From: Desulfovibrio sp. JY
GTDB taxonomy: Bacteria; Desulfobacterota; Desulfovibrionia; Desulfovibrionales; Desulfovibrionaceae
Assembly (NCBI GenBank): GCA_021730285.1
Contig: CP082962.1
Coordinates: forward strand, 4,349,501 to 4,413,500
Length of the DNA: 64,000 nt
Direction of reading: 5' to 3'
In this document: positions 42,229-64,000 of the stretch, piece by piece
Numbering within the stretch: the stretch's first letter is position 1
Layout: each line of letters begins with the position of its first letter
The notes under the pieces: generated by a model
Told to the model about the DNA's origin: nothing
The model's input: the letters and a program-made list of their open reading frames with translations, nothing else
Databases searched by the model: none
Made by a program: the position numbers and the translations under genes

Positions 42229-42237
42229 GAGTATCCC

Positions 42238-42465: not shown

Positions 42466-42502
42466 AAGAGGAGCGGCAGGGCGGCAGCAACCGCCCCACC
42501 GA

Positions 42503-42559: not shown

Positions 42560-42602
42560 GTTAGAGGGCTACAGCTTCCGGCCCAACCTTGTAAAGGCAA
42601 GC

Positions 42603-42776: not shown

Positions 42777-43494
42777 CAACGGCGTCCTCTACACAGGCGA
42801 CGCCCTGGCGGTTTTGAAAGAGCTTCCGGCGGATTCGGTGGACATGGTGCTCACCGACCCGCCGTATTCGAGCGGCGGGCTGCACTTGTCCGCGCGCCAG
42901 GCGACCCCGGCCTCAAAGTACCAACGCAGTGGGACCAAGAAGGTCTATCCACCGATGCTCGGCGACCTGAAGGACCAACGCTCTTTCGTCATGTGGGCGG
43001 CGCTGTGGCTGGGGGAATGTTGGCGGCTGGCCAAGTCGGGCGCGTCCTGCCTGGTCTTTTGCGACTGGCGGCAACTGCCGGCTATGACCGACGCGATCCA
43101 GGCCGCCGGCTGGCTCTGGAAGGGGATAGTGGTCTGGCACAAACCGAACGCCCGGCCGACCATGGGGGCTTTCCGACACGACGCGGAGTTCGTGATCCAC
43201 GCCGTGAAGGAAAAGATGCGGACGCACACGCGACAATGCTTCCCCGGCGTGTTCCATTGTGGCGTGGACCCGAGGAAAAAGGTCCACCTCACAGGGAAGC
43301 CCGTGGCCCTGGTCAAGGACCTGCTGGCGGTGGCCGCTACGGGGGCAAACGTGCTCGACCCGTTCCTCGGTGGCGGCACCACCGCCCTGGCATGTGTGGA
43401 GACCGGCAGGCGCTTCATCGGCGTGGAGCTTTCGCCCGAATATGCAGCTCTGGCCGCCGAGCGCATCCATGCCGCCGAGGCCGCGTTAAAGTAG
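42754..43494 (+). CDS. Beta-class DNA methyltransferase (N6-adenine or N4-cytosine)
   Basis: The 246-residue protein has motif IV DPPY at about residue 35 and the C-terminal motif I DPFLGGGTT, so catalytic then SAM-binding order, which defines the beta class. It takes the place of Mu mom and would protect phage DNA from restriction. The GTG start follows AAGGAG by 8 bases and lies inside com. Confidence 0.85.
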   Translation: MSPQTVFDNGVLYTGDALAVLKELPADSVDMVLTDPPYSSGGLHLSARQATPASKYQRSGTKKVYPPMLGDLKDQRSFVMWAALWLGECWRLAKSGASCLVFCDWRQLPAMTDAIQAAGWLWKGIVVWHKPNARPTMGAFRHDAEFVIHAVKEKMRTHTRQCFPGVFHCGVDPRKKVHLTGKPVALVKDLLAVAATGANVLDPFLGGGTTALACVETGRRFIGVELSPEYAALAAERIHAAEAALK

Positions 43495-43543: not shown

Positions 43544-43673
43544 TCGCGCGCCGCCTTACATCACGCTCCTTTAATCCAACCACTATCCGCCTAACCGCTT
43601 CAACTGCCGCTAATGAACGCTCACAACCTTGGACCGGGGACCCATAGCGGACCCAAGCACCCCTCCAACGCAA

Positions 43674-43711
43674 AAGGGGTTGGACCGTATTAGTCCAACC
43701 CCTTAATTTTT
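43674..43711. terminator. Bidirectional terminator between prophage and tRNA fragment
   Basis: AAGGGGTTGGAC (43674-43685) pairs with GTCCAACCCCTT (43693-43704) in a 12-bp stem, followed on the plus strand by AATTTTT. On the minus strand the stem is followed by TTTT, so it would also end tRNA-Arg transcription. Confidence 0.8.
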
Positions 43712-43712
43712 A

Positions 43713-43762
43713 TGGTGCTCCCGATGCGATTCGAACGCATGGCCTATCGCTTAGGAGGCGAT
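43713..43762 (-). tRNA. 3' half of tRNA-Arg(CCT), island attachment site
   Basis: Read on the minus strand, the sequence gives an anticodon arm ATCGC-CTCCTAA-GCGAT (anticodon CCT), variable region, T arm ATGCG-TTCGAAT-CGCAT and acceptor 3' strand CGGGAGC-A-CCA. The D arm and 5' acceptor strand are missing, replaced by AT-rich DNA leading to the integrase. This is the usual duplicated 3' tRNA segment at one end of an integrated element; the intact tRNA should be at the other end. Confidence 0.85.
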
Positions 43763-43889: not shown

Positions 43890-45137
43890 ATGGACAAAAT
43901 CCGGGAGATGGACATGGCAACAAAATGGATTGGCACGAATTATCCTGGAGTTCGGTACAGAGAACACCCCTCCCGGAAGCACGGCATCCAAAAGGACCGC
44001 TATTTTTCCATCTACTATAAGGTCGGCGGCAAACGCCGCGAGGAAGCCCTTGGCTGGGCCTCGGAAGGTTGGACCGCCGCCAAGGCCGCTCAGACTTTGG
44101 CAGAACTCAAAAAGGCCCATACCATCGGGGAAGGACCATGCTCCCTGGCGGAAAAGCGCAAGCTAGCCGAGGAGAAGCGTCAGGCCGAGGAGACGGCACG
44201 CGTTATCGAGGCACGCGAAAACATCACCCTCTCCCAAGTCTGGAAGAAATACCTTCCTGTGGCCCAGGCCAACAAGGCCACCCATACGGCCTATGCTGAA
44301 GAAGCCGCTTACCGGCTCTGGCTCTCCCCTACCCTGGCCGACAAACCTCTACGTGACATCAAGCCCATACACTTAGAGCGCATTAAGAAGACCATGACCG
44401 AAGCCGGCCGTTCCGCTCAAACAGTCCGGCATGTCCTGGCCGCCTTGCGGCAGGTATTCAACTTCGCCAAGCGCCATGGCCTCTATGCCGGCGACAACCC
44501 GGTTTCTTTGGTAAAGAAGCCCATGACCGATTCCCGCCGTCTCCGCTTCCTGACCCACGACGAAGCCGACCGATTGCTTGCCGCCCTGGCCGAACGGGAA
44601 TCCAACGTCCATGACATGGCCCTGCTCGCCCTGCATTGCGGCCTGAGGGCCGGTGAAATCTTTTCCCTGACCTGGGGCGACGTGGACATGGAACGTGGCG
44701 TCCTCATCCTGCGCGACACCAAAAGCGGCAAGACCCGGGCGGCCTACATGACCGAGGCCGTGGCAGCAATGCTCGCGGACATGGAACGCCGAGGTCCCGA
44801 CGATCTCGTGTTTCCCTCCGCCAATGGTGGCCGTATCGTCCAAATTTCCGAGACGTTCAACCGCGTGGTTGCCGCCCAGGGGCTCAACAATGGTGTTACC
44901 GATCCACGCCAGAAGGTCGTCTTCCATACCCTGCGCCACACCTTCGCCTCTTGGTTGGTCGAGCAAGGCATCGATTTGTATTCGGTCAAAGAGCTTATGG
45001 GACATGGCACACTGGCCATGACGGAGCGCTACAGCCACCTTTCCCCGGACAAACTGCGCCGGGCGGTCAAAACTCTTGAAACCAGCATGAATACGATAAA
45101 GAGAGACGAACGCATTATGCACATGAGGGATAACTAG
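43890..45137 (+). CDS. Tyrosine recombinase integrase of the tRNA-Arg island
   Basis: The 415-residue protein has a P4-type N-terminal DUF4102-like domain (YFSIYYKVGGKRREEALGWA), a SAM-like core-binding domain and a catalytic domain with R (GLRAGE), H-x-x-R (HTLRHTFA), H (MGHGTL) and the Tyr nucleophile (ERYSHL). It integrates at the adjacent tRNA-Arg. The start may be ATG 43890 or ATG 43911. Confidence 0.93.
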   Translation: MDKIREMDMATKWIGTNYPGVRYREHPSRKHGIQKDRYFSIYYKVGGKRREEALGWASEGWTAAKAAQTLAELKKAHTIGEGPCSLAEKRKLAEEKRQAEETARVIEARENITLSQVWKKYLPVAQANKATHTAYAEEAAYRLWLSPTLADKPLRDIKPIHLERIKKTMTEAGRSAQTVRHVLAALRQVFNFAKRHGLYAGDNPVSLVKKPMTDSRRLRFLTHDEADRLLAALAERESNVHDMALLALHCGLRAGEIFSLTWGDVDMERGVLILRDTKSGKTRAAYMTEAVAAMLADMERRGPDDLVFPSANGGRIVQISETFNRVVAAQGLNNGVTDPRQKVVFHTLRHTFASWLVEQGIDLYSVKELMGHGTLAMTERYSHLSPDKLRRAVKTLETSMNTIKRDERIMHMRDN

Positions 45138-48236: not shown

Positions 48237-50507
48237 ATGGCGATAGCCTTTGCCAGAATGGAGATCATTTCCACCCGCAACGGCGGATCGGCGGTTGGGC
48301 TTTCCTCGTACCTGAACCGGGATCGAAAAATACAAAACTCAACCGGCAGGCAATTCGACTTCACGGAAAAGCTCGCTGACGAGCCCAACGAGTTTGTTCA
48401 TTCTGAACTTCTTGTCCCTGAACAACTCAAGGAGAAATGGGTTTCAAGTGAAACGCTCTGGAACGCCGCTGAGGCGGCTGACCTGAAAAAGGACGGAACG
48501 ATCAAGACAAACGCTCAGCTCGCCAAGCACATGGTTTTGGCCCTTCCAGCGGATGAGGGCCTCTCACGTGAACACGTGCTTGAACTGGCCCGGCAATTCG
48601 CCCGCGAGCATTTCACTAAACATGGCTTGGTCGTCGAGATGGTCTTCCACGACAAAGGGGACGGCAACCCACACGCCCATCTTCTCATCTCGACCCGAAC
48701 TCTTGGCGAAAGCGGCTTTGGCCCCAAGGCGAGGCACCTGAACCCTGGCTTCGCCAAAGGAAAGTTTGTCCTCCAGAAGGACGATTGGGGCCAGGAATGG
48801 GCAAATTTTCAGAATGGTTATTTCAAGTCCCATGGTCTGGATCTCGAAGTGGATTCGATCGGCAAGATCAGCCAGAAGCATGTTGGCCCAGCCTGGCATC
48901 AAAAAGGCGGGCAGGCGGTCAAGCGGGAAATCAATGAAGGCATCCAGGCGGAAAACGCCGAACTCCCCCCCGAGGAAATGCTTACCCAACTGACCCGGAA
49001 CAAATCCATCTTTAGCGAACGCGACATCTCCCGTCTGGTTTCCAAGGTCACCAGCACGCCCGAAGGCAACGCCAATCTCAAGAAAGAGATCCTTTCCCAG
49101 GAGAACCTCATCCGGCTCTACGACCATGATCCCGGCAAATTCGTGGGATTCACCACTCGGGACGTACTTGAACAAGAAAAGCGGGTCATGGACATGGCCA
49201 GGTGCAGGAATCAGGACGCCGCGCCTATGCCTCAGCCGAGAGCCATCCAACGCGCCTTGCACTCTAGAACCATGGACCCAGAGCAGGAACAGGCCTTCCG
49301 CCATGCCATAGCACCTGGGGGGCTAAAAATCATCGAAGGCCGAGCCGGAGCCGGCAAGTCCTACACCATGGGTGCCATCCGTGAGGCCTACGAGAAGTCC
49401 GGCTTTCGTGTCGTGGGGCTCTCCCCAACCAACACCGTGGCCCAGGACATGAAAACAGATGGCTTTGCCGAGGCCAGTACCGCCCATTCTGCCGTCTGGC
49501 ATCAGGAGAATAACGCCAGATCGCAAAAGTGGGACCAGAGGACCGTCCTTCTCGTTGACGAGGCGGCCATGCTCGACACGGAAATCATGGAGAAAATTTT
49601 TAGCAACGCCACAAGAGCAGACTCCAAGGTGATCCTGATTGGCGACGACAGGCAGCTTGCCTCCGTTGCCAGAGGCGGCATGTTCACAGAATTTCGCCAC
49701 AGATTCGGTTCGGCAGAGATCACCAAAGTTCGCAGGCAAGAGTCCGACTGGCAGAAAGAGGCCAGCGCCAACTTCTCCGAAGGCCGGTTCCTCGATGGCC
49801 TCAAGCGATACCAGGAACGCAAAGGCTTCCTTCATTGGCTACCAAATGCCTCAAGCCAGAAAGAAGCCCTCGTCAGGGAATGGACCAAGGACATGTCATG
49901 CGATCCGACCCAGGCGAGATTTGTCTACGCGGGGACCAACGCCGAGGTGAACGAGTTGAACATGCACCTGCGGGACATCCTGGCGAAGCGTGGCGACATC
50001 GTCGGCAACCATGAATTCGAGACCTGCAAGGGCACGCAGACCTTCGGCATCGGCGACAGAATTCAATTCCATGGAACGGACAAAAAGGCTGACATCTTTA
50101 ACGGCTCACTTGGGACGATCAAATGGATCGACGGCGACAAAGTCAACGTACTCACCGACGCCGGCCAGGAAGTCGCCTTCAATGCCAAGGAGTTCCGGGA
50201 CTTCGCCCTAGGCTACGCCGGAACGGTTTATCGTGGCCAAGGAAAGACCCAGACGACCGTCTACTGCCTGCATGGCCGCAACTGGGAATCCCGCACGAGC
50301 TATGTCGGCCTGACCCGCCACAAGGAACAGCTCAAATTCTTCATCGACCAATCCAACACCAGGGACTTACGTGCCTTGGCGATCCAGATGGGCCAAAAAC
50401 GAGTTGCCAGGGCCAGCATCGGTTTTAGACCTGAGTTTTCAATGAAACGAGCTCCCAATCACGAACGCGTGAGGACCAAAGGACGAGAGTTTGATTTAGG
50501 CCGTTAA
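48237..50507 (+). CDS. traA: MobQ/TraA-type relaxase-helicase
   Basis: The 756-residue protein has an N-terminal relaxase domain with the histidine motif GNPHAHLLISTR (about residue 140) and a C-terminal RecD-like helicase with Walker A GRAGAGKSY, VDEAAMLD and TVYRGQGKTQTTVYCL. It nicks oriT and unwinds the strand for transfer. Together with TraD- and ParA-like genes it makes the element mobilizable; no mating-pair genes are seen. Confidence 0.9.
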   Translation: MAIAFARMEIISTRNGGSAVGLSSYLNRDRKIQNSTGRQFDFTEKLADEPNEFVHSELLVPEQLKEKWVSSETLWNAAEAADLKKDGTIKTNAQLAKHMVLALPADEGLSREHVLELARQFAREHFTKHGLVVEMVFHDKGDGNPHAHLLISTRTLGESGFGPKARHLNPGFAKGKFVLQKDDWGQEWANFQNGYFKSHGLDLEVDSIGKISQKHVGPAWHQKGGQAVKREINEGIQAENAELPPEEMLTQLTRNKSIFSERDISRLVSKVTSTPEGNANLKKEILSQENLIRLYDHDPGKFVGFTTRDVLEQEKRVMDMARCRNQDAAPMPQPRAIQRALHSRTMDPEQEQAFRHAIAPGGLKIIEGRAGAGKSYTMGAIREAYEKSGFRVVGLSPTNTVAQDMKTDGFAEASTAHSAVWHQENNARSQKWDQRTVLLVDEAAMLDTEIMEKIFSNATRADSKVILIGDDRQLASVARGGMFTEFRHRFGSAEITKVRRQESDWQKEASANFSEGRFLDGLKRYQERKGFLHWLPNASSQKEALVREWTKDMSCDPTQARFVYAGTNAEVNELNMHLRDILAKRGDIVGNHEFETCKGTQTFGIGDRIQFHGTDKKADIFNGSLGTIKWIDGDKVNVLTDAGQEVAFNAKEFRDFALGYAGTVYRGQGKTQTTVYCLHGRNWESRTSYVGLTRHKEQLKFFIDQSNTRDLRALAIQMGQKRVARASIGFRPEFSMKRAPNHERVRTKGREFDLGR

Positions 50508-50518: not shown

Positions 50519-51058
50519 ATGGAGAAAAACAAACTCACACCAGAAGAACAGCTCAAGCGCGCCTTGGAGCGGAAAAATCGCGCCATAGCGGCGGAAAACA
50601 GAGCAAAGGCCCAACTTCGCAAAGCGGAACAGCGAATCAAATACGAGCTTGGCGGATTGGCTGTCAAAGCAGGCTTCAAAGGCCTTTCCCTCAAGACGGT
50701 CTTTGGCTCTCTGTGCTTTGCCAGCGCAATGCTTCGTGTCCATTCCGCCGGAAAGGAAGTCGAAGACTATTTCCAGCGCCTTGGCTTGGCCGCATGGGAG
50801 CGGTTTGAAGTGGCGAAGGACCTCAAGTTTTTGAAAGATCTTTCGGAACAGGAACGTACGACAATTCTGTCAGAGCTGTTTGAGCTGATCCAGAGGCATC
50901 CTTTCCCCGGCAACGACCACACAGCCAGGCCAATGCCCGCGAGACCTTCTCTTCAGCCCCAGACGCAGAACCAGACGCCGGAGGTCGAATACAAGCAACC
51001 GGCAGGTCCTCCACTCACCCCTTCGGCAACACACGCCGGATTCGACGAGGAGACGTAA
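50519..51058 (+). CDS. TraD-like mobilization accessory protein
   Basis: The 179-residue protein has a basic N-terminal helix (EEQLKRALERKNRAIAAENR) and the ELGGLAVKAGFKGL motif of the small Agrobacterium-type TraD family that accompanies TraA. The C-terminus is Pro/Gln-rich. It begins 11 bp after the relaxase with GGAGGAA. Confidence 0.72.
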   Translation: MEKNKLTPEEQLKRALERKNRAIAAENRAKAQLRKAEQRIKYELGGLAVKAGFKGLSLKTVFGSLCFASAMLRVHSAGKEVEDYFQRLGLAAWERFEVAKDLKFLKDLSEQERTTILSELFELIQRHPFPGNDHTARPMPARPSLQPQTQNQTPEVEYKQPAGPPLTPSATHAGFDEET

Positions 51059-51855
51059 TGCGACGCGCAATCTTCGTACTCAGCCAGAAAGGCGGCCCCG
51101 GCAAGTCCACCTTCTCCCGTGCCCTTCTCGATGTGCTCAGGTTTGACCGGAATATGACCGTTGGCGCCTTCGATGCAGATGGAAACGTCGGCCAACTTCT
51201 CCAATATTATGGAGAGCGAGGCGAGAATGGCAGGCTCATTCCGGATCAAGACCCCGTCCGAGGCGTTTTCCCCTTCGACATCCGGGACAAGGTGGGGCGA
51301 GATAACGTTGTCAACGCCCTGGACCTTGATGCCGACGTCCTCCTTTTCGACCTGCCGGGCGGCGCGGTTGATACTCTCACGACTATCATCAGGGCTGAAA
51401 ATGGCATTCAGGCACTCGTCCAGGAATACCGGAACGCAGGCGTTGCCATCACTGTCGTCATCGTCATGTCCATCGTACACGCCTCGGCGAGCAATGTTGT
51501 CAAGACTATCAACATGTTCGGACCGGATGTCGATTATGTGGCCGTGAAAAACCTCTTCTTCGGCGCGCCAGAGGACTTCCTTTTCTTCGATGGTTTTACC
51601 GACGTTCAAGGGAACACGGTAGGTGGTCGAGGCAAGGCACTGCTCCATCAACATCAGGGTGCGCTTATAGCCATGCCGCAGCTACGTGGTCGGGAATACG
51701 CCCTCCTGGACCTTTACAACCTCGGATTTACCCCGGCCTTGAAATCCTCTCTGCTTCGCCGGGCAGAACGAAGCAACATCTTCCACTTTCTTGAAGGATT
51801 CAAACATGCCGTGACAACCGCTGGTATTTCTCTGGGCGTGGAGGAGAGCATATGA
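51058..51855 (+). CDS. ParA/StbB-like P-loop ATPase
   Basis: The 265-residue protein begins with a deviant Walker A QKGGPGKST and has the Walker A' FDADGN and Walker B LLFDLPGG. It resembles StbB/MobD-like ATPases that aid stability or transfer. The start overlaps the TraD-like stop (TAATG). Confidence 0.85.
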   Translation: MRRAIFVLSQKGGPGKSTFSRALLDVLRFDRNMTVGAFDADGNVGQLLQYYGERGENGRLIPDQDPVRGVFPFDIRDKVGRDNVVNALDLDADVLLFDLPGGAVDTLTTIIRAENGIQALVQEYRNAGVAITVVIVMSIVHASASNVVKTINMFGPDVDYVAVKNLFFGAPEDFLFFDGFTDVQGNTVGGRGKALLHQHQGALIAMPQLRGREYALLDLYNLGFTPALKSSLLRRAERSNIFHFLEGFKHAVTTAGISLGVEESI

Positions 51856-52645: not shown

Positions 52646-53665
52646 TTATCCCTCGCCGCCGCCATCAATGGCTTCCGGCACGTAGACGCGCTTCAACGGG
52701 AATAGCCCTTTATACCTGGAATCGAATTGGTCGTAGTGTTGCAAGATCAAATCAACGAGTTCGTTCCCGTCAATGAGACGAAAGTTGCTTTTGGCCTTGG
52801 CAAAATTCCGCGCCTGATTCGTAAATCCGCCGAGCGTGACAAGGAGTCCGAATTCGCCTTGTGCGACCTTGCCATAGAGCGCTGACACGATGGGGTCGCC
52901 GATATTGCCCTCGGTGCTTTTCACTTGCACTTTGATGATAGGCGGTTCGAAGCCCAGTTCGTCCTTGTGGGCAACTATGTCCACGCCGCCGTCAGGCCCC
53001 TCGGGTGATACACGTGTGCGGTACCCCATCGTACCAAGCAGGTGGCCGACAAATTTCGCCAGTGGATGCCCCTTCAACTCCTGGGCAAGACGTTTGAGGA
53101 TAAAGTCACGAGTGGTCTGCTCGATCTCTTCGGCCACCACTGCCACACTCTCGTCCTGATCGACCGGCGGGGAAGCGGTCTTGCCTTCCAGGGCGGCACG
53201 GAATTCCTCGGCGTAGTTTTTGATCTGAAAGAGACTCATGGCCGAGCCGATCTCGTAGAGCGCCCCCTGGCTGAAGCTCGTGCGGGGAACGGCCTTGAGC
53301 CATTTGACCGGGCGTAGATTGGGATATCCCGGCTCCAGTTTGGCGTCGAAGCGGTACTCCCCTTCCACGCGGCCAAGGTGAATCTGGCGGTCGCGCTTGG
53401 AGGGATAGGCCACCAAATCCCCGGTCTTCATCTCGTGGACAAAACGAAAAAGCTGCCCGGCATTGTTCGGGATGGCCCCGGGCTTTTTTTCCGGGTATGC
53501 CTTGGCCACGGCCGCCTTGTAGGCTTCACGATCCGGCGGGAGTTTGGCCAAATCGCCCAGATGGTGCCAGCCGATGGCGATGACGTTTTTCTTGAGAAAA
53601 AGCGTGTCGGCATCACCCGTCTTGCCAGCATGTATGCCCCACAACGTAATTTCGCCGTTGGCCAT
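52646..53665 (-). CDS. Mrr-type restriction endonuclease
   Basis: The 339-residue protein has a C-terminal PD-(D/E)xK Mrr-like domain: D229 in GPDGGVDI and Q247-x-K249 in KVQVKS. The N-terminal 130 residues (LVAYPSKRDRQIHLGRVEGE) resemble EVE/PUA-like modified-base readers. It would cut modified or foreign DNA. Start 2 bp after the hsdM stop; last gene of the defence operon. Confidence 0.83.
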   Translation of the reverse strand: MANGEITLWGIHAGKTGDADTLFLKKNVIAIGWHHLGDLAKLPPDREAYKAAVAKAYPEKKPGAIPNNAGQLFRFVHEMKTGDLVAYPSKRDRQIHLGRVEGEYRFDAKLEPGYPNLRPVKWLKAVPRTSFSQGALYEIGSAMSLFQIKNYAEEFRAALEGKTASPPVDQDESVAVVAEEIEQTTRDFILKRLAQELKGHPLAKFVGHLLGTMGYRTRVSPEGPDGGVDIVAHKDELGFEPPIIKVQVKSTEGNIGDPIVSALYGKVAQGEFGLLVTLGGFTNQARNFAKAKSNFRLIDGNELVDLILQHYDQFDSRYKGLFPLKRVYVPEAIDGGGEG

Positions 53666-53667
53666 GG

Positions 53668-55128
53668 CTACACATCCTCTTGTTGATTCAACTCTTCCGC
53701 CACTGCCCGAAACTGCTCCAGAGCCGCTTCCAGATTTTCGACGATTTCGGCCGCGAGGATGGCCGGCGCGGGCAGGTTGTCCAGGTCTTCCAGGCCTTCA
53801 TCCTTGAGCCAAAAGATGTCAAGATTCAGCTTGTCCCGGCTGACAAGCTCCTCATACGCGACGCACTTGAAGCGTTCCGTTTCTTTACGGGCGGCACGGT
53901 TATCGGTGCTGTAGCTGTCGATGAAATCGACCATGTCCGCGAGCTTCAAGGGGCGTTCGACCAACGTGAAATGGATGTTGGTACGGAAGTCGTAAATCCA
54001 AAGATTCTTGGTCCAAGGCACTTTGGCAGCGGGCTTCTTGTCGAAAAATAGCACGTTCGCTTTGACGCCCTGCTTGTAGAAAATACCCGTTGGCAGACGC
54101 AGCAGTGTGTGAAAATCAAAGGCGTCGAGGAGGCGTTTGCGCAAGCCTTCTCCGGCGCTGCCGGCCTCGAAAAGCACATTGTCCGGCAACACCACGGCCG
54201 CCTTTCCGTTTATGGCAAGGATGCTCATGACGTGCTGCAAAAAATTGAGCTGTTTGTTCGAGGTGGTGAATTTGAAGTCGTCGCGCTCGTAGCTGTCCTT
54301 TTGGGTCTTGATGTTCCCGTCTTCACCGACGATCTTGTAACTTGATTTCTTGCCGAAGGGCGGGTTGGTCAGGACCATATCATAGGACATGTTCGGCTTG
54401 CTTGCCAGAGCGTCGCCCTGATGGACGGGGCTTTCCCCATTGCCTATGCCATGCAGATACAGGTTCATGGCGCACAGGCGCACGACCTCGCCCACGATGT
54501 CCACACCGAAAAAAGTGTCTTCCCGAAGCTTGCGTTGCATCCCTTTGTCCCGGGATTGCTCCTTCATGTGCTCATAAGCGGCGAGCAGAAAGCCGCCCGT
54601 GCCGCAAGCGGGATCGCACAGGGTCTGCCCAATTTTCGGGCGCATGACCTCGACCATGGCCTGTATGACCGGGCGCGGCGTGAAGTACTGCCCTGCCCCG
54701 GATTTGACCTCGGCGGCATTGCGCTCCAACAGTCCTTCGTAGATCGCGCCTTTCACGTCCATTTGCATGCCGATCCAGGTCTCCTCGTTTATGAGGGAGA
54801 CAACGCGCTTGAGCTTTGAGGGATCGGTCAGCTTGTTTTGGGCCTTGTGAAAAATCGTGCCGATGATGCCGTTTTTTTTCGCCAGACTTTCCAGTACATG
54901 CCGGTAATGCAATTCCAGTTCGTCGCCATCCTTGACGATGAGCGTCCCCCAGCGCAAATCTGTGGGTATGATCGACGGCTCATCCAGATAGTCGAAGCGT
55001 TCCTGATCCATTTTGAGGAACAGGAGATAGGTGATCTGCTCGACGTAATCGCCGTAGGATATGCCCTGGTCGCGCAATACATGGGCATAGCTCCAGACTT
55101 TGGAAACAAGGGAAGAATTCTCGGCCAT
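53668..55128 (-). CDS. hsdM: Type I restriction-modification methyltransferase HsdM
   Basis: The 486-residue protein has an N-terminal HsdM helical domain, SAM motif I DPACGTGGF (172-180) and catalytic NPPF (255-258). It methylates adenine within the site chosen by HsdS. It is separated from hsdS by the zeta remnant and a small gene. Confidence 0.95.
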   Translation of the reverse strand: MAENSSLVSKVWSYAHVLRDQGISYGDYVEQITYLLFLKMDQERFDYLDEPSIIPTDLRWGTLIVKDGDELELHYRHVLESLAKKNGIIGTIFHKAQNKLTDPSKLKRVVSLINEETWIGMQMDVKGAIYEGLLERNAAEVKSGAGQYFTPRPVIQAMVEVMRPKIGQTLCDPACGTGGFLLAAYEHMKEQSRDKGMQRKLREDTFFGVDIVGEVVRLCAMNLYLHGIGNGESPVHQGDALASKPNMSYDMVLTNPPFGKKSSYKIVGEDGNIKTQKDSYERDDFKFTTSNKQLNFLQHVMSILAINGKAAVVLPDNVLFEAGSAGEGLRKRLLDAFDFHTLLRLPTGIFYKQGVKANVLFFDKKPAAKVPWTKNLWIYDFRTNIHFTLVERPLKLADMVDFIDSYSTDNRAARKETERFKCVAYEELVSRDKLNLDIFWLKDEGLEDLDNLPAPAILAAEIVENLEAALEQFRAVAEELNQQEDV

Positions 55129-55130
55129 GG

Positions 55131-55337
55131 CTATTTCGTCGTCCTAGATGCCGCTTGCGGCTCACAGCAGGCGTTCACGGATTGTATGGGCTGGGTTTCC
55201 ACAACGCGGCCATCCTCCCACAAGACGAGGGGAGTTCTCATCTCGCGGGCGATTTTCTCGGCGCGGCCGGAGGCGCGCGTCAGGGCGATTTTGATATTGC
55301 GCCTGTGTTGATCGGATTCGGAGCCGTTAGGCTGCAT
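55131..55337 (-). CDS. Small protein, neighbour of zeta-type ATPases
   Basis: The 68-residue protein (ESDQHRRNIKIALTRASGRA; MRTPLVLWEDGRVVE) resembles the short proteins encoded right after zeta-toxin-like ATPase (COG4185) genes in many bacteria. Its ATG overlaps the end of the remnant at 55327-55425; its stop is 2 bp before hsdM. Role as antitoxin is speculative. Confidence 0.6.
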   Translation of the reverse strand: MQPNGSESDQHRRNIKIALTRASGRAEKIAREMRTPLVLWEDGRVVETQPIQSVNACCEPQAASRTTK

Positions 55338-55425
55338 GTGTTCGTCCCTCGTTGGGCAGATATTCCCGGGCGAAGGTGGTCTTGCCCGCGCCATCGGGGC
55401 CGGTGATGATGCATATGGACGGCAT
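55327..55425 (-). pseudogene. N-terminal remnant of a zeta-toxin-like ATPase
   Basis: A 32-codon frame starting at ATG 55425 encodes MPSICIITGPDGAGKTTFAR-EYLPNEG, a typical zeta/COG4185 Walker A start, then stops at 55327 within the next gene. About 150-180 residues of catalytic body are missing. It lies 4 bp after the hsdS stop. Confidence 0.65.
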
Positions 55426-55429
55426 AGCG

Positions 55430-57274
55430 TTACAGCAGAGCATCCGGGCCGACGCCGAGCGCCTTGGCCAGGGCCTGCCGCTGCTCCTCGGTCACGGCGC
55501 GTTTTCCGGTTTCCATCTGCGATATATAGGCTTGGTTGAGGCCGACCGCCTTGGCAAGGGCCGCCTGGGACAGGCTGGCGGCCTTACGAAGTTGGGCCAA
55601 AGTCTGAATGGACCTTTTCGGGACAGCCGGAACAGGAGCAAAGGGCGTTGCCGGCACTGCCGCCGGGGCTGCTACTTGCACTGTCGGCTTGGACTGGGTT
55701 GTTTTCTTCCAGGGGCCGGTTGCACGGCGCGGGCGGGAATCCGCCTGGGCGGCCTTTTGCGCCGCTATACGCTTGAGCAGCTCCGAGGCAGGCTCGTCAT
55801 TGGGGTCTTGCGGGACGAGTTTGCCGGTGAAAGCGGATTTGAGGATGGATTGGCGAAGAGAATCATTAATCCTCAAAATGCTACTAAATTCATTCGCGCT
55901 ACGAACGCTCAACTCGTTTGACATTACAATCCGCTGAGCGATCACTTTCTGTTCATCAAGAGGTGGGATTGGGATAACAATAGACATGACTTGCGCTTGA
56001 GAAATTTTATATATACCCGCAGTCGTTTTAGCCATTAATTTTATCTGTTTTCTGACAAACATGCTTTCCCAAATATTTTGCACAAACTGACTAGAATTTG
56101 CAGCACTCAAAAATCTTAATCGTATCATAATATCTGGATATATAAAAAAACCATTCACATTTTGCGCCGTCGCACCTCTCCCCACAAGATCAACAGAACC
56201 ATTCCCCCTCGCTATAAAGAAATCACCTTCTCGTACCTGAATATCCAAGACAGTATCTTCTGGGACTTGTAAATACTTTACTTTTGAAAAATCAATTCTA
56301 CTATCACCAATAGCGTTTAACTTTAACGAAGGGACTCCGGGTGGAACAGTTGTCCCCTTAATTGAAAATCCCGTTTTCAATGGCTCTGAAAGTAACTGCC
56401 CCAAGCTTGCCCACGTCCACCCCTCCGGCAACTCCGGCAACCCCGCCGCAACCGGCCCCGCCGGCTCCACATACCGGGCCTCCCACGAGTCGTCTTTGGG
56501 CTTTTTCCCCTTGGCCTTCATCTTCGCCAACTCGGCCTTTTCCCAGGCCTCGCGGCGAGCTTTCAAGATACGCTTAAGAAGGGCTTCCCCACTCTCCAGG
56601 CGGTCCTTATTCTTCTCGCGCCATTCGCGGGTCAGTTCGCCCGTCACTGCCGCCTTGAGAACGGACTGACGGTACTTCTTGAGCAACGCCTGCGCTCGGC
56701 GCAAGGACTCTTCGCCCTTGTCCAGGTCGGTAAAGAGTTCTTTTATTTTGGAGACGATGCGGACTTGTTCGTTCGCTGGCGCTATCGGGACTGGCAGGGC
56801 CTTAAGCTTTGAGAGACTAATTGAAGCAAGATTCGTTGTTTGCTTTCCTTCATCAAAAAAATACTTCTTACCAAACGCATTTGTGTAAAACGATAAAAAT
56901 TTAGAAGACAAATCCCCTAAAAAAGGCCGCGCACGAAATACATGATTTTGATGAATGCACACGGGCAACTGCCCTTGCCATACCCATCCTCTCCCGAGCT
57001 TATCTCTATCCCCGCCTTCATTCAAAAGAATGTCTCCAGGCATCAACTTTAATCTATCAACGATATCCGTTGTGACAACAATGCTTTTAACCTCACCAAG
57101 GTCAATATAGCCATCTTGAACATTAGCGACTCGAAGATAAGGGACTTCAACACCACCAACAACCGACCTTTTCTTATCAACCGTCACGCCACCTTTGATA
57201 TCTACTACTTGTGCAAGCGACGCCACAATCCATCCTGGAGGCAAAGCACCTCCATCATTTAATTCCCAAATCAC
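55430..57274 (-). CDS. hsdS: Type I specificity subunit HsdS with C-terminal XRE HTH domain
   Basis: The 614-residue protein has two target recognition domains (about 1-200 and 260-450), each ending in conserved helices (LLKKYRQSVLKAAVTGELTR; SLRQSILKSAFTGKLVP), then a Pro/Ala-rich linker (about 510-552) and a complete XRE HTH (553-614: LAQLRKAASLSQAALAKAVG; YISQMETGKRAVT). The fusion is unusual. The GTG start is immediately after the hsdR stop. Confidence 0.9.
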   Translation of the reverse strand: MIWELNDGGALPPGWIVASLAQVVDIKGGVTVDKKRSVVGGVEVPYLRVANVQDGYIDLGEVKSIVVTTDIVDRLKLMPGDILLNEGGDRDKLGRGWVWQGQLPVCIHQNHVFRARPFLGDLSSKFLSFYTNAFGKKYFFDEGKQTTNLASISLSKLKALPVPIAPANEQVRIVSKIKELFTDLDKGEESLRRAQALLKKYRQSVLKAAVTGELTREWREKNKDRLESGEALLKRILKARREAWEKAELAKMKAKGKKPKDDSWEARYVEPAGPVAAGLPELPEGWTWASLGQLLSEPLKTGFSIKGTTVPPGVPSLKLNAIGDSRIDFSKVKYLQVPEDTVLDIQVREGDFFIARGNGSVDLVGRGATAQNVNGFFIYPDIMIRLRFLSAANSSQFVQNIWESMFVRKQIKLMAKTTAGIYKISQAQVMSIVIPIPPLDEQKVIAQRIVMSNELSVRSANEFSSILRINDSLRQSILKSAFTGKLVPQDPNDEPASELLKRIAAQKAAQADSRPRRATGPWKKTTQSKPTVQVAAPAAVPATPFAPVPAVPKRSIQTLAQLRKAASLSQAALAKAVGLNQAYISQMETGKRAVTEEQRQALAKALGVGPDALL

Positions 57275-60052
57275 TTAAGCAACCAAAGCATCAGTCAAAT
57301 CGTTCAAAATCCCCTCCAGCTCACCATCGAACGCTCGCCGCGCCGCCACCAGCCCGCCCTGGCCGTTGAGGCTCGGCGATTCCAGGAAATCCCGAGGCGC
57401 TATCTCCACGTTGGCGGACAGGTGGTCGCGGATCAGCCGCAGCCATCCCATCTGCTCCTCGGAGTATTCCTTGCCGGCCTTTTTCTGGCGGCCGATCCAC
57501 AGATTGAAGCGCTGCTCCACCTTGACGCCGAAGGGCTCCAGCTCGGTGTCGCGGCCGAGGGCGAACCTGACGAGGGAAATGATATCCGTCAAGACCTTAT
57601 CCGACGGCGCGCCCCGGACCCGGCTGGCCTCCAGCCGCTTATAGGCCTGCCAGACGTCGGCCGTGGTCAGATGAAACGGGCGGTCGCTGATCCGGTCGGC
57701 CAACTCCTTGACCGAGGCATAGGTCAACTGGCGCTTGGCATAGGGCTGATTGTAAAGCACTTGTAGGGCGAGCAGCTCGTCCTTGCGCTGCTCCATGAAC
57801 TCCCGGAAACTCGTGATCTTTCCCCGGGCGATGTTGAGGTCATAGCCGGCCGACAAGACCTCGTCCGTAGCCGTCTCATGAATGATGAGCTGCGATTTCT
57901 GCCACAGGTCGATCAGCAGATTGCGCACCGTCGGATTATCGAAAACCGCGCAAGCCTCGTCCTTGAGCTGCTCCTCAATCTCCTGCCGCTGTGCTTCGGT
58001 CGCCTGGGCCGGGTCGCCATGCGTGTCCCGAACTGCTTGTTCAAGCCTGTCCGGGTCGATGGCACTCAAAAGGCCGGCCGCCATGCCGTGCAGCGAAAGC
58101 CCGCCCGTGGCGGCGGCAACACGCTGCGCGTCCTCAGGGTCGATCTTACGCTCCAACTGCGCCAGCCGCCCGACCAGACTCGAAATCCCGTCCGCATCGC
58201 GCCGCCCCTGGGCAACTTGGGTCAGGAGTTTGTCGAAGGCGACGGCCCGGACGCGTTCCAACGGCTGGGAAGCGGTCTTCTCGCTTTCCGTGACGCCGAC
58301 TGCATCCACAAGCACAAAGCGCGTCTTGGTCCGGGCGTCCGGGGTCACGGCCTGCAAATCCGCAGCCTCAATGGAGCGCACGCCCCGGCCCTTCATCTGC
58401 TCGAAATAGCCAAGGGAGCGCACGTCGCGCATGAAAAGCAAAACCTCAATGGGTTTGACGTCTGTGCCCGTGGCGATCATGTCCACGGTCACGGCGATTC
58501 TGGGCATGGGATCGACCCGGAAGCCTTTAATCAACGCCTTAGGCTTGTCCGAGGTGTTCCGATAGGTGATCTTGCGGCAAAACTCGTTGCCCTCGCCAAA
58601 GACCTCCCGGACGATATGCACGATCTCTTCGGCGTGGTTGTCGTCCTTGGCGAAAATGAGCGTCTTGGGAACCCATTCCCCAGACCGGTCCGGGAAAAGC
58701 TCGGTAAACAGGGCATCCTTGAAGCTCCGAATGACGGTGCGAATCTGGTTCGGGACAGTGACCGACCGATCCAGCTCCTGCCCGGAGTAATCCATGTCCT
58801 CGTCAAGCTGCCGGTAACGAAGCGCCCGGGTCCGCTTGTCGCGCACAGGCACGGCATACCCCGCCTCCACCGTGTCGCCCTGCTCGGTAATCCGGGTTCT
58901 AATCCGAAAGACCTCGTAGCCGACGTTGACCCCGTCCACCACCGACCGCTCATACGGATATTCGGACACAAGATTTTGATTGAAAAAACCCAGCGTTTGC
59001 CGTGAAGGCGTGGCCGTCAGACCGATGATGTACGCATCGAAATATTCCAACACCTGCCGCCAAAGCCCATAAATCGAGCGGTGGCATTCGTCAGTTATGA
59101 TAAAATCAAAAGTCTCAATAGGGATGTCGGGATTATATCTGACCGGAGGAATGCCCCCCTCCTGGCCGTTCCACGTCTCGAACGCCGACCCCTCCTCGGC
59201 CTCGTCGTCCAATTCCTTTCCCTGAAGCAGGGAGTACAGCCGCTGAATGGTCGTAATGACCACTTTGGCGTCCGGGTCGATACGATTGGAGTGCAAGTGC
59301 TGGACGATGTACGTGTCCGTAAAGCGGTTGGCAGCCCCGACAGGATGGTAATCCTGATATTCGCGCAACGTCTGGTCGCCCAGGTTCTTGCGGTCCACCA
59401 GAAAGAGAATGCGCCGCGCCCCAGCGTGCTTGATGAGCCGATAACTGAACGTGCAGGCGGTAAACGTCTTGCCCGCCCCCGTGGCCATCTGGATGAGCGA
59501 GCGGGGTTCGTCCCTGGCCAGGGACCGTTCCAGACCGTCTATAGCCTCTATCTGACAGTCCCGAAGCCGGGCCGGTTCAATCGGCGGCAGCGAAGCAAGT
59601 TTAGCCCGTAACGATGCGTCCTGCCGCAGCCAGGCAAGCAGGATTTCGGGGGTATGAAAGGCAAAAATGCGCCGGGAACGTGGCCTGGGGTCGCGCATGT
59701 CCTTGAATTGGACTTCCTCGCCGTTAGACTCGTAATCAAAAACGAGGGTGTCGGACCACTTGGCAAAATGTGATGGAACAGACCCCATATACCGATCAGA
59801 CTGCTCGGCCACGCCGCTGAGCGTCGCGCCGGCCGCCTTGGCCTCAACAACGCCAGCCGCCTTGCCATCTACAAAGAGAAGATAGTCGCAAGGACCGGAA
59901 GAAAGCTGCACCTCGCGAACGGCAACACCAAGCGAAGCCTTGCGGTTCATATCCCCGGCATTCTGGATGACCCAACCCGCCGACGCCAGAAGCGCATCGA
60001 TTTTTATCCGGGCAAGCTGCTCCGGTGTCTGGGCCGAGGCGGTGTTGGTCAT
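57275..60052 (-). CDS. hsdR: Type I restriction endonuclease subunit HsdR
   Basis: The 925-residue protein has an N-terminal PD-(D/E)xK nuclease (LLFVDGKAAGVVEAKA), SF2 translocase motifs MATGAGKTFTACTF and ITDECHRSIYG, and the HsdR C-terminal helical domain. It translocates DNA and cuts at a distance from unmethylated sites. I start it at ATG 60052; an upstream in-frame GTG (60178) would overlap rdrB by 109 bp and adds a Arg/Pro-rich segment. Confidence 0.93.
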   Translation of the reverse strand: MTNTASAQTPEQLARIKIDALLASAGWVIQNAGDMNRKASLGVAVREVQLSSGPCDYLLFVDGKAAGVVEAKAAGATLSGVAEQSDRYMGSVPSHFAKWSDTLVFDYESNGEEVQFKDMRDPRPRSRRIFAFHTPEILLAWLRQDASLRAKLASLPPIEPARLRDCQIEAIDGLERSLARDEPRSLIQMATGAGKTFTACTFSYRLIKHAGARRILFLVDRKNLGDQTLREYQDYHPVGAANRFTDTYIVQHLHSNRIDPDAKVVITTIQRLYSLLQGKELDDEAEEGSAFETWNGQEGGIPPVRYNPDIPIETFDFIITDECHRSIYGLWRQVLEYFDAYIIGLTATPSRQTLGFFNQNLVSEYPYERSVVDGVNVGYEVFRIRTRITEQGDTVEAGYAVPVRDKRTRALRYRQLDEDMDYSGQELDRSVTVPNQIRTVIRSFKDALFTELFPDRSGEWVPKTLIFAKDDNHAEEIVHIVREVFGEGNEFCRKITYRNTSDKPKALIKGFRVDPMPRIAVTVDMIATGTDVKPIEVLLFMRDVRSLGYFEQMKGRGVRSIEAADLQAVTPDARTKTRFVLVDAVGVTESEKTASQPLERVRAVAFDKLLTQVAQGRRDADGISSLVGRLAQLERKIDPEDAQRVAAATGGLSLHGMAAGLLSAIDPDRLEQAVRDTHGDPAQATEAQRQEIEEQLKDEACAVFDNPTVRNLLIDLWQKSQLIIHETATDEVLSAGYDLNIARGKITSFREFMEQRKDELLALQVLYNQPYAKRQLTYASVKELADRISDRPFHLTTADVWQAYKRLEASRVRGAPSDKVLTDIISLVRFALGRDTELEPFGVKVEQRFNLWIGRQKKAGKEYSEEQMGWLRLIRDHLSANVEIAPRDFLESPSLNGQGGLVAARRAFDGELEGILNDLTDALVA

Positions 60053-60069
60053 AGTGGTGGCTTCACGAG

Positions 60070-62589
60070 TTAAATTTTCCTGGGAAGGCCCAGCCCGAAA
60101 CGGTACCTGCGAGCGGTATCGTGGAGATCTTGAAGGATGTTGTTGGCCCTGGTCTCGTCCAGGCCTTCCATCTGACACAGCCCCTTGTGGATGAGTCCCA
60201 TTTCGTTGCGCAGGTTGGTGGCGAAAATGCCCGGGTCGTCGGAGGCGATGACGACCGTAGGGACAGGGCGTCCACCCTTATTGTTGAGCCAACGGAATAC
60301 GTGATGATCGTAGATGTGTTCATAGTCGCTGATGCGTAAATTACTGGTAGGCATCACCTCCACGGCGATGCATTTCTGGCATGTCATCTTTATCACAGCA
60401 TCCTGGAGCACCTGTAGCACGGGGACGGTGAAAGGATGCTTGGAAACCGGTATGATTTCATTCCATTTTTTCTGCGGTTTGGTGTGGTAACGCTTGAAGA
60501 TGTCGAAAGCCTCGGGGAGATTTCTCTTGCTTTGCCGAACCCTGTCGGCCTCGACATCCCAGCCGCCCAAGGACGGCATGTCTCCATCCAGACTGAGCGC
60601 AGCCAGGGGATCAAGGTGACGCAATTGCCAAGCTTCGATCAGCAGATCCACATCAGGGGCTGCCGTACCCCAGAGTTCGCGATACCCGGCTCGTATATCG
60701 TCGCGCAGTTGTTGGCAGGCGGACAAACAGTGCCCCTTGTACCGAAGGAGGCCGTAGGCCCAGATCAAATTGTCGAGCCACTCGCCCCGGGCGCAGTGGA
60801 GGGTATTGTTACGGCATCTCAACCAGTATCCAGGGTCCATGCCCAAGGCTGTGCCATGACCGATGCGATCGCCTGCTTGGAGTTCCAGAAAGTCGATGGC
60901 CTCATGCACGGCCCGTAGGCCCGAGGGAAGCGTGATGAAATCCTCCCCCACGTGGTAGGTGAACTTGCAGAGCCCCCCCCGGCGCAGCAGGCGGAACAGC
61001 GGAGCAAAGACTTCTGGAGGTGCGTCTAGTTCATTGTTGGCAGCGTCCGCACCGACGAGGCGTTTGGCGAACTCAGGGTGAAGTTGGCGCGTACGCAACA
61101 ACGCTCTCCCCTTTTTCATTAAGCTTTGGCGGAGCTTATAGTGACGGCAAACTCCATCATCCTTTCCAGATTGCTGAGTTTTGATGAAATGTGCCACAAG
61201 GGCCAGATCGAAGGGTCGAGACGGAGTGCGCTCGGATAGCACCGTAACGGGTGGGCGGCATCGCGGACAAGAGGACGACCTTTCAGGAGTACGGAAGGCC
61301 TTGTCATATCCCTCACGAATGCCCTTCAACAAAAGAAAATTGCTTTTCCGTGTATCCTTTGGAGCAAATCGTCCCTCAACATAGCCCATAGTCGGGCCAT
61401 GCATACCATGTAACTGGTGGAAACGGTCTTCGTATCTTTGTTCTACGCCACAACGTAGGTCATTTTCCGGTATTTTTTGAAACTGATCGAATCCGAATTG
61501 CTCGGCCTGCTGCACAATGAGCCGTTGGCAACGACTCTGTAAAAGCAGATAGATATGCAGCGCCCGATCAAACACATCATGGCCCCGGCCCAGATGGCGA
61601 AAGGCCCGGGCCAACATCAAAGCTTCAAGACGGACCAGCCGAACGGATTTACCCCCGCCGCAGGGAAACTGACAAGGGTAGGCCACAGCCATTGGATGAT
61701 CCATGCCGCCCAACAAGGCGATCCAGGACGAGTCCATCGCGCCGGCTGCCGTAAGGGCATACTTGAGTGCTGCCCGACTGGAATAGCTATGTTCCGAATC
61801 GTCGCTCTGCCGCTCCTGGCCTTGACCGTTGCGGTACCTCCCTGGCCGATTGAGCAGGATACGGACGATAAAGTCGCGCAGACGACGGGCTTTCAACAAT
61901 AGAAGGTAGTAGTCCCAGACACTGGTCAACTGGTGTTGGGCCAGAAATTCCTGAACGCGAAACTTTCCGTTGGCTGCCTTCCTGAGGTTCCAGGCCATCA
62001 GCTTGGGGCGGCTCAAGGCGAATTGCCATACGAAGTCGGCCTCGGTGGTGCCGTTGAGGTGCATATGCAGTTCGACAAGCCCCTCCCGGACGGCAAGGTC
62101 TTCCAAAAACGCGTTTTGCCCAGGGGGCAAAGTGGCATGAGAGAACGTCTGTAGCAGCATCTGTTCCCAGGTCGCGTATTCGCCGTCCCAGCGGGCACGA
62201 GGCCTCACTGTGTCGCTGGCAGCCTGAGAGACTCCAAATTGCAGCCAAGCGGCCACGCTGGCCAAAACTACTGGGGACATTGTCGTCAGCAAATTTTGCC
62301 AGTCAGCGAGACGCTCCTCGCGGACATACAGCTTGTCCCCACGAAACCTGAGATGGCCCTCGGCCAAATTCTGCAGACTGACGCGCACGGCCTGCCCTAC
62401 GGAAGGGACATCATCCAGGGCAGCTTGCAAGCGATGCCTAATGGCGTGATCAGGCTGCCGTGTCTCAATGCGGCGTTCCGCCAGCAAGACACTGGTCTTA
62501 AACGCATCCAGGCGAGAGAATACATTCCGAAGGTAGATCGCCAGAATGTATTGATCAGTCAAGAAAATGCGATGAATACGTTCCGGCAT
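60070..62589 (-). CDS. rdrB: RADAR adenosine deaminase RdrB-like
   Basis: The 839-residue protein has every adenosine-deaminase active-site motif, widely spaced: H175-x-H177 (LHMHLNG), H546 and E549 (HVGED), H578 (RIGHG) and D784-D785 (SDDPG). Large size and an upstream non-homologous partner identify it as RdrB-like, the RADAR effector that deaminates adenosine nucleotides during phage infection. The ATG is 2 bp after the rdrA-like stop; hsdR follows after 17 bp. Confidence 0.82.
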   Translation of the reverse strand: MPERIHRIFLTDQYILAIYLRNVFSRLDAFKTSVLLAERRIETRQPDHAIRHRLQAALDDVPSVGQAVRVSLQNLAEGHLRFRGDKLYVREERLADWQNLLTTMSPVVLASVAAWLQFGVSQAASDTVRPRARWDGEYATWEQMLLQTFSHATLPPGQNAFLEDLAVREGLVELHMHLNGTTEADFVWQFALSRPKLMAWNLRKAANGKFRVQEFLAQHQLTSVWDYYLLLLKARRLRDFIVRILLNRPGRYRNGQGQERQSDDSEHSYSSRAALKYALTAAGAMDSSWIALLGGMDHPMAVAYPCQFPCGGGKSVRLVRLEALMLARAFRHLGRGHDVFDRALHIYLLLQSRCQRLIVQQAEQFGFDQFQKIPENDLRCGVEQRYEDRFHQLHGMHGPTMGYVEGRFAPKDTRKSNFLLLKGIREGYDKAFRTPERSSSCPRCRPPVTVLSERTPSRPFDLALVAHFIKTQQSGKDDGVCRHYKLRQSLMKKGRALLRTRQLHPEFAKRLVGADAANNELDAPPEVFAPLFRLLRRGGLCKFTYHVGEDFITLPSGLRAVHEAIDFLELQAGDRIGHGTALGMDPGYWLRCRNNTLHCARGEWLDNLIWAYGLLRYKGHCLSACQQLRDDIRAGYRELWGTAAPDVDLLIEAWQLRHLDPLAALSLDGDMPSLGGWDVEADRVRQSKRNLPEAFDIFKRYHTKPQKKWNEIIPVSKHPFTVPVLQVLQDAVIKMTCQKCIAVEVMPTSNLRISDYEHIYDHHVFRWLNNKGGRPVPTVVIASDDPGIFATNLRNEMGLIHKGLCQMEGLDETRANNILQDLHDTARRYRFGLGLPRKI

Positions 62590-62591
62590 GG

Positions 62592-64000
62592 CTACGCAGG
62601 AAGCTGATTGGGTTCTCGATTCATCTTAGGAAGAATGATGCTAGCGAAATTCGGAAGCAACTGTTTCACAAACCGGGAAGATGTGGGCTTAAGCCTGCTA
62701 CTAGGATAATACAATTTTTCCAAAGGCATCCATAAATCATATATTTTATACTTATCGACCTCCGACTCAATGCCCTTTACGTCGAGTATTTTCGCGTATG
62801 CACATATGTCTGTGCTATAGTCCTTCAACATCTTTTTGTATGTGTCAGACCAAGAATTTTCCTCAAAGTAACTCAATTGCGCAGTAGATGGCCCGGCATA
62901 TGAGTATGACAAGATACCCCCCCTCATAGTTGTATCTGACAAACCATCTCCCTCAACCGCACGACCACACATCATGTTCAAAGGCTTGTACATATTAATA
63001 GATCGGCATCTATCTTTCGACGAGTCCGCATAAACAACTTCAAGAGACTTGATGCATTTAACGTATGGTAGCTTTCCACCACAGCACTGACTTGAATGGA
63101 TAATGTGTTGATTAAAAACATTGTAAGTATATCCATGCATGATTTTAGTGGGAGCCCGCAAAAACAGCCCCCACAGGGGACAACTAAAAAGCATTCTAAA
63201 CAACCTAAAATCCTCTGAGTATTCAGTTGTGCCCTCTCTTATTTCCTCATTCTGCTCTTGCTCATAGGGATCTTCATTTTCGTCATAAGCAATGTCACAA
63301 GTAATTATGGGATCTTCCGACTCAAATTCAAAAGGCTTAGCCAAACCAAGCACGGCAAGATTTCGGGAAAAAATTCGATCAGAAGTAACTGGATTAGCCA
63401 GAGTCACACGCTCGGTCCCGGTGTCAACGCCCAGATGAAGATATTCCTCAACTAGCACGGCATTAAAAAAAGCAATTATACATCTATGCAGATATCGGCC
63501 AACAGGCGCTTTATCTATCGGGATGGCATTGTCGATGGACACTAGGGTGTAACAAAATCGAGTCATCGCCTTGGACCAAACTGCGACTGGCACCGGTCGC
63601 ACCTGCTTTTTCCAATAGTTACCCCACAAAACTAAGTTCTTAATGAAATTTTCTGCCTCCTCGGCATATCCCATATCATAAAATATATCATCAACATCTT
63701 CTGCGACGATTGCACTAAGCGTTTGTTTTATTCTTGCCGATTTCTCTCCAGAAACTGGAGCGAAACCGAATACAGGATAAGATCGCAGCTGAGCCATATC
63801 TTCTATTTTATTACGAAATACCTTCACTTGTTCGTCAAACGACAAAGGTCCTGAACCACCAAGCGACAACAACTCAACCACTGCACCTATAATACTAAAT
63901 ATAGACACAAAAGTAAATTCACCACCGGAAGCAACAACCTTAGAGAATGGCAATCTTGCGTATTTTTTTTGCCATGATTTTATATAGTTCCTATAAGAAG
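62592..64000 (-). CDS. rdrA: RdrA-like protein, C-terminal part; 5' end beyond window
   Basis: The frame is open from 62592 to the window edge, at least 468 codons, so the visible part is C-terminal and the P-loop ATPase domain expected in RdrA would be outside. The visible segment has no recognised motif; it is AT-richer than rdrB. Identification rests on coupling to rdrB (2 bp gap, same strand) and on the size expected for RdrA (about 900 residues). Confidence 0.55.
   Translation of the reverse strand, partial: SYRNYIKSWQKKYARLPFSKVVASGGEFTFVSIFSIIGAVVELLSLGGSGPLSFDEQVKVFRNKIEDMAQLRSYPVFGFAPVSGEKSARIKQTLSAIVAEDVDDIFYDMGYAEEAENFIKNLVLWGNYWKKQVRPVPVAVWSKAMTRFCYTLVSIDNAIPIDKAPVGRYLHRCIIAFFNAVLVEEYLHLGVDTGTERVTLANPVTSDRIFSRNLAVLGLAKPFEFESEDPIITCDIAYDENEDPYEQEQNEEIREGTTEYSEDFRLFRMLFSCPLWGLFLRAPTKIMHGYTYNVFNQHIIHSSQCCGGKLPYVKCIKSLEVVYADSSKDRCRSINMYKPLNMMCGRAVEGDGLSDTTMRGGILSYSYAGPSTAQLSYFEENSWSDTYKKMLKDYSTDICAYAKILDVKGIESEVDKYKIYDLWMPLEKLYYPSSRLKPTSSRFVKQLLPNFASIILPKMNREPNQLPA

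Follow-up and report, generated by a model that had tools for sequence, protein, structure and literature searches.

Two kinds of described system come closest to the locus considered here. RADAR operons carried on a plasmid protect Escherichia coli, and by the authors' account both RdrA and RdrB are needed for this. The system converts (d)ATP to (d)ITP and abortive infection is proposed as its outcome. Strong evidence for RNA editing was not found, and the available part of the paper says of sensing only that RdrA may control it (PMC9994260). The second precedent is EcoprrI, in which prrC is embedded in a type IC restriction operon; as given in the available part of the article, PrrC is sequestered by the enzyme and released on infection by T4, which resists type I enzymes (PMC3874165). 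Here we describe an array of RADAR, type I (hsd) and Mrr-type genes in a 64,000-nucleotide stretch of Desulfovibrio sp. JY (contig CP082962.1, positions 4,349,501 to 4,413,500), hereafter the window, which is part of a genome assembled as a single contig of 4.69 Mb. The original prediction regarded RADAR as acting via nucleotide deamination, in agreement with the published conversion of (d)ATP to (d)ITP, and as coupled to restriction in a two-tier unit. The coupling found no support, as the gene order recurs in 0 of 93 other RADAR loci and 0 of 33 related hsdR loci. Most likely an integrative element carries the array as defence cargo, i.e. two complete and independent systems plus a third nuclease, and not a new linked system. 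These defence genes seem to have come together this once, and elsewhere RADAR and the hsd cassette occur independently of each other.

The array reads leftward as follows, in window coordinates:

62592..64000, reverse strand: rdrA, 3' part in the window (whole gene 62592-65762; 1056 amino acids, ATG start, AGGAG ribosome site)
60070..62589, reverse strand: rdrB, adenosine deaminase of RADAR (839 amino acids)
60053..60069, reverse strand: junction of 17 bp between the rdrB stop and the hsdR ATG, no strong ribosome site
57275..60052, reverse strand: hsdR, EcoEI-like type I restriction subunit (925 amino acids)
55430..57274, reverse strand: hsdS with a C-terminal helix-turn-helix (HTH) domain (614 amino acids)
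55327..55425, reverse strand: stub of a P-loop protein (N-terminus, the rest missing; 32 amino acids)
55131..55337, reverse strand: small protein of 68 amino acids
53668..55128, reverse strand: hsdM, type I DNA methyltransferase (486 amino acids)
52646..53665, reverse strand: Mrr-type endonuclease (339 amino acids)

The six large genes are intact, every one of their open reading frames (ORFs) matches a known family, and they stand in tandem over 13.1 kb, which rules out chance ORFs. The gaps are 2 bp between rdrA and rdrB, 17 bp between rdrB and hsdR, 0 between hsdR and hsdS and 2 bp between hsdM and mrr. Thus the strand-contiguous array of intact genes that had been predicted is borne out, and of its proposed gaps (2, 17, 0, 4, 2 and 2 bp) all hold except the 4 and the 2 around a "small gene" between hsdS and hsdM, where two overlapping ORFs are found.

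The first two genes are RADAR genes, as predicted: RdrA with AAA+ motifs and RdrB with a deaminase active site, encoded next to each other. The window holds only part of rdrA, and the gene was completed from the adjoining sequence, which places its ATG at 65762, 1.8 kb beyond the window. The full-length protein, for which an ATPase domain had been anticipated, scores 2.2e-23 against the RdrA profiles of PADLOC and 4.5e-35 against the solved structure PDB 8hr7, and these matches rule out an RdrA without ATPase; its Pfam AAA matches lie below the Pfam cut-offs. The Walker A motif reads GQRGVGKST, and all 84 aligned RdrA sequences have the Walker B residue D236. RdrB matches the solved structure PDB 8fnw (3.3e-71). 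Its residues H175, H177, H546, E549 and H578 are invariant in 91 of 91 aligned RdrB sequences (90 relatives and the window's copy, three pairs of loci with the same DNA being counted separately). D784 is kept in 90 of the 91, the other having a gap, and position 785 has D in 86, N in four and a gap in the remaining one. Incomplete or short proteins were excluded from both alignments. H175, H177 and E549 align with H152, H154 and E501 of E. coli RdrB, which are described as active-site residues in the part of PMC9994260 available. In sum, the locus resembles the structurally characterised RADAR systems (8fnt, 8fnw, 8hr7), for which a giant assembly of RdrA and RdrB is typical, in having rdrA directly before rdrB, AAA+ Walker motifs and the deaminase residues. 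It differs from them in the hsd genes 17 bp after rdrB and in a longer RdrA (1056 amino acids against a median of 944 among 83 complete relatives, four of which are at least equal in length).

HsdR, HsdM and HsdS are all present and make up a type I restriction-modification set. HsdR has Pfam matches to ResIII (2.1e-36) and EcoEI_R_C (5.5e-34), HSDR_N falling just below the cut-off (25.0 vs 25.1 bits), and its closest relatives share 73% identity. HsdM matches N6_Mtase (1.8e-64) and HsdM_N (1.7e-14) and is 78% identical to its counterparts in the loci L201 and L202. HsdS shows one Pfam specificity-domain match (Methylase_S, 1.7e-12), long PADLOC specificity matches and an HTH_3 domain (7.8e-13). 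The latter is the sole extra domain of the set, and it is also found at the C terminus of HsdS in the stand-alone L201 and L202, i.e. we found no Pfam domain peculiar to the RADAR-hsd pair. The Mrr-type protein, which belongs with Mrr / type IV restriction by its catalytic domain, matches Mrr_cat (3.4e-25) and PDC-S02 (6.9e-144). Relatives of it adjoin type I genes in three of the four plasmid neighbourhoods examined (of 10 matched records), so that an Mrr neighbour is ordinary. Like EcoEI-like type I systems, the cassette has the order hsdR-hsdS-x-hsdM, which 17 of the 19 loci with a full hsdM (among 24 hsdR loci) share: there, DNA lies between hsdS and hsdM, and the remaining two have the order R-M-S. 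Unlike them, the window's cassette carries a stub and a small protein in the slot, RADAR before hsdR and an Mrr-type gene after hsdM.

The slot between hsdS and hsdM runs over 295 bases from an ATG 4 bp past hsdS to a stop 2 bp before hsdM. Since this is not a multiple of three, there is no single small gene. Instead, an ORF of 32 amino acids begins like a P-loop protein (presumably a zeta-like kinase) and then ends, overlapping the 68-amino-acid ORF in a different frame. Relatives of the 68-amino-acid protein occur in 13 of 297 genomes, its own included (E 0.01 or better). In seven of these 13 loci a match to the stub precedes the relative on the same strand, and the frames open from the stub match measure 167-170 amino acids in five loci and 125 and 79 in the other two. 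Five of these loci were retrieved together with their flanks, and among them L160 alone has a match to hsd genes, a weak one. We thus rejected the idea of a small gene linked to hsd, as the slot is not one ORF and the relative follows a P-loop frame in seven of 13 loci. In the loci whose genes were viewed (L138-L140 and L201-L203), differing genes stand between hsdS and hsdM. It appears that a P-loop gene was here cut down to its 32-residue stub with the partner ORF left intact, the longer frames being found in other genomes. This truncation is what speaks for a recent and possibly decaying junction, in which rdrAB or hsd would be silent and the array a fossil of cargo exchange. The six large genes are nevertheless intact with conserved motifs, and we regard such decay as highly improbable.

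The same gene order, whose presence in other genomes had been proposed as a check, was sought from both sides. A scan of genome contigs gave 86 RdrB relatives, the best 80 loci of which were kept. Together with 11 loci from the host's order and five from viral contigs these make 96 RADAR loci, 93 of them with distinct DNA (the pairs L016/L182, L036/L184 and L079/L176 were counted once each; one of the viral loci has the same DNA as L079). In none of the 93 does hsd follow rdrB; the sequence past the RdrB match is 500 bases or longer in 82 of them and 3000 or longer in 75. Among the best 80 of the 86, RdrA was matched in 74 loci, HsdR, HsdS and Mrr relatives in none, and HsdM in three, never adjoining rdrB. 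A weak HsdM match in L057 (4.5e-4, about 8 kb past rdrB) fails the 1e-6 threshold and is uncounted. In the host's order RdrB was matched in 12 of 348 genomes, its own included, and hsd comes after rdrB in none of the other 11. The RADAR match is weak or partial in L189-L191, and G476, a family member with RADAR, has the same DNA as Desulfovibrio sp. A2. Phage records gave no RdrB match. Counted outside the 93 are L006-L010 of the phylum search, short stretches in which no hsd match was found, and seven plasmid records, three of which were fetched (L011-L013) and gave no type I match; L011 is the plasmid of L065.

When the 96 loci were queried with seven HsdR and HsdM sequences of several types, type I genes were found in the fetched DNA (at most 10 kb a side) of three: L051, L085 and L181. 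In L085 and L181 they lie beyond rdrA on the other strand. In L051 (2886-12529, Phaeovulum veldkampii), a distant locus, hsdR, an ORF of 251 amino acids, a gap of 118 bp and rdrA-rdrB follow each other on one strand. This is the reverse of the window's order, RADAR being preceded by another type I system.

As to other neighbours of RADAR, a gene annotated as adenylosuccinate synthetase, an enzyme of the pathway from inosine to adenine, lies 0.9 kb after the RADAR genes in L011 (14001-19039, Rhizobium leguminosarum pRLN3). An ORF of 257 amino acids that by eye resembles a NERD-type nuclease stands 30 bp past rdrB in L027 (12391-13164), and one of 231 amino acids resembling a membrane protein stands 2 bp past rdrB in L025.

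From the restriction side, 33 related hsdR loci were collected: 20 of 23 other places in 395 genomes of the phylum, four of nine plasmid records, and all nine others found later. RdrA or RdrB was matched in none of the 33, and the sequence before hsdR reaches 3 kb or more in 26 of them. The nearest relatives of the hsd genes, L201 and L202 (HsdR 72-73%, HsdM 78% identity), have the order hsdR-hsdS-x-hsdM with the HTH domain on HsdS, are free of RADAR and have unrelated DNA before hsdR. One genome (G449) carries both RADAR and a related hsdR, located on separate contigs, with 9 kb past the RdrB match without hsd. A literature search that combined RADAR with type I or hsdR terms gave no paper, and absence from print is claimed only as far as the searches made; PMC10121019 contains "radar" and "type i restriction" once each.

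These distributions bear directly on whether the array is a coupled unit, in which RADAR would be held inactive by the co-expressed type I enzyme, or would fire on its failure, in the manner of PrrC. The tight junction on the same strand, the published precedent of prrC in EcoprrI (PMC3874165, in the part available) and L051, an independent same-strand neighbourhood of RADAR and a different type I system, would fit such a unit. Likewise, EcoprrI-PrrC and the present locus both have cell-halting effector genes beside a type I operon. However, PrrC is both embedded and sequestered, whereas rdrAB stands outside the hsd genes and is found without them elsewhere. An effector of the PrrC kind should be kept with type I genes across genomes, and here the order is met in none of the 93 other RADAR or 33 hsdR loci. 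Moreover, the plasmid RADAR operons already mentioned protect E. coli in a manner dependent, by the authors' account, on RdrA and RdrB (PMC9994260, in the part available), and the pair has no Pfam domain of its own. Since the modules live apart and share no pair-specific domain, we consider coupling very unlikely. The same low standing, or one slightly lower still, is given to its most specific form, with RADAR as a built-in second line. In that case Hsd subunits or the resulting state of the DNA would set the threshold of RdrA, phages that disarm restriction would trigger ATP deamination, and the pairing would have arisen a second time, independently, in the reversed neighbourhood of L051. 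If the coupling did exist, PrrC would be joined by another kind of alarm for failed restriction, one whose weapon is the nucleotide pool, and this would provide a handle on what RdrA senses.

As for the carrier of the defence cargo, a tRNA-Arg (CCT) gene is found at 65992-66068. The other parts of the element are:

43667..43762, forward strand: left end, direct repeat (90.6%) of the tRNA-Arg 3' end and terminator (65946-66040)
43890..45137, forward strand: tyrosine integrase (Phage_integrase, 1.6e-34)
48237..50507, forward strand: MobA/MobL relaxase-helicase fusion (MobA_MobL 2.5e-31, AAA_30 4.9e-48)
50519..51058, forward strand: TraD-like transfer protein (5.3e-8)
51058..51855, forward strand: ParA-like ATPase (7e-7)

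The repeats enclose 22.4 kb, with the defence array and the relaxase, TraD-like and ParA-like genes between them. Judging by these genes and ends, the carrier is an integrative and probably mobilizable element at the 3' end of tRNA-Arg. The tRNA was matched in 14 of 14 genomes of the genus and a second partial repeat in seven of them, the host included. An integrase adjoins the repeat in all seven, with 81-85% identity in the six that are not the host (of 13 other genomes). Both ends are on the same contig in four of the seven, spanning 14.0 to 22.4 kb. In one of the genomes (G698) the interval encodes Cas3c and Cas1c, of a type I-C CRISPR-Cas system, in place of the present cargo. MobA, TraD and ParA were unmatched in the sister stretches fetched, several of them partial, where only the integrase was matched. 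The element resembles integrative defence islands at tRNA sites in its integrase, tRNA-end repeats, relaxase and swapped defence cargo, and we saw no essential difference from them.

Two further observations concern this site. One integrase family uses the tRNA-Arg (CCT) gene as a hot spot of insertion, the cargo being swapped, and the interval in G704 contains what by eye is a CRISPR-like repeat array.

How the RADAR and hsd genes are joined was investigated at the junction itself, the start of hsdR being taken as the ATG at 60052, 17 bp past the rdrB stop. AGGAG precedes rdrA, no ribosome site precedes rdrB and only a weak one precedes hsdR; the hsdR of L202 also has a weak site. In seven of 70 RADAR loci the next ORF lies on the same strand and either starts within 20 bases of the rdrB stop or overlaps it (the 70 are those of the 80 loci with at least 500 bases downstream; ORFs were called mechanically at 80 amino acids or more), so that such close spacing behind rdrB is not unusual. 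A consensus scan found no promoter-like site on the coding strand inside rdrB. Terminator-like sites were absent from the gene junctions, but three were listed on the coding strand inside rdrB. The totals are near chance (12 promoter-like sites vs 9.7 expected, 19 terminator-like vs 17.2 expected), thus the scan weighs little. A single transcript from rdrA to mrr is plausible, judging from the gaps and these scans. The G+C content differs between rdrA (44.7%), rdrB (56.0%), hsdR (60.2%) and hsdS (50.2%), which is counted in favour of assembly.

The junction also raises a weaker kind of link, compatible with independent cargo, in which the hsd cassette would be placed under the RADAR promoter and the two systems would rise and fall together, perhaps via the HTH domain of HsdS and with no contact between the proteins. 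The DNA that precedes hsdR in L201 and L202 is here replaced by rdrB, and the promoter scan of rdrB points the same way. On the other hand, consensus scans prove little here, and the rdrA leader has no 10- to 13-mer in common with the hsdR leaders of L201 and L202, a comparison which is weak, since at most 0.4 shared words are expected by chance. An operator of the HsdS HTH domain common to the rdrA leader was accordingly dropped as a candidate, the palindromes being uninformative. We hold this expression coupling to be possible, if doubtful.

The course of events that we favour is the assembly of independent systems, in which rdrAB was set directly before a cassette hsdR-hsdS-x-hsdM whose hsdR is elsewhere preceded by other DNA. 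Because the two are joined directly, one promoter before rdrA probably accounts for at least part of their transcription and would drive at least the first genes of the array. The predicted type I enzyme would methylate the host DNA and cut unmodified incoming DNA, and the predicted Mrr-type enzyme probably cuts foreign modified DNA. Upon infection, the predicted RADAR system would convert (d)ATP to (d)ITP and so halt the cell. The systems would act as layers in one cell, and RADAR would not need to sense a failure of restriction. Should the array be no more than such an assembly, it illustrates cleanly how a tRNA-site element gathers complete defence systems, one of them possibly brought under the promoter of another.

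We note that several points weigh against this explanation. After rdrB, 11 of the 93 RADAR loci have fewer than 500 bases, and five of the 33 hsdR loci have less than 1 kb before hsdR. The pairing is not wholly singular, given the type I genes near RADAR in L051, L085 and L181, on the same strand in L051. For mere neighbours in an island, a junction of 17 bp is closer than necessary. Since L202 also has a weak ribosome site, the weak site before hsdR does not prove that hsdR depends on rdrB here. Finally, as MobA, TraD and ParA were unmatched in the sister stretches, the term mobilizable rests on the window's copy.

Elsewhere in the window, phage-tail-like and DNA-methylase ORFs, recognised by eye, occupy 36669-43494 and end just left of the left repeat, so that a prophage may adjoin the element. 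It is also conspicuous that the G+C content of positions 22001-24000 is 35.6%, compared with 65.1% and 68.2% in the adjoining 2-kb stretches.

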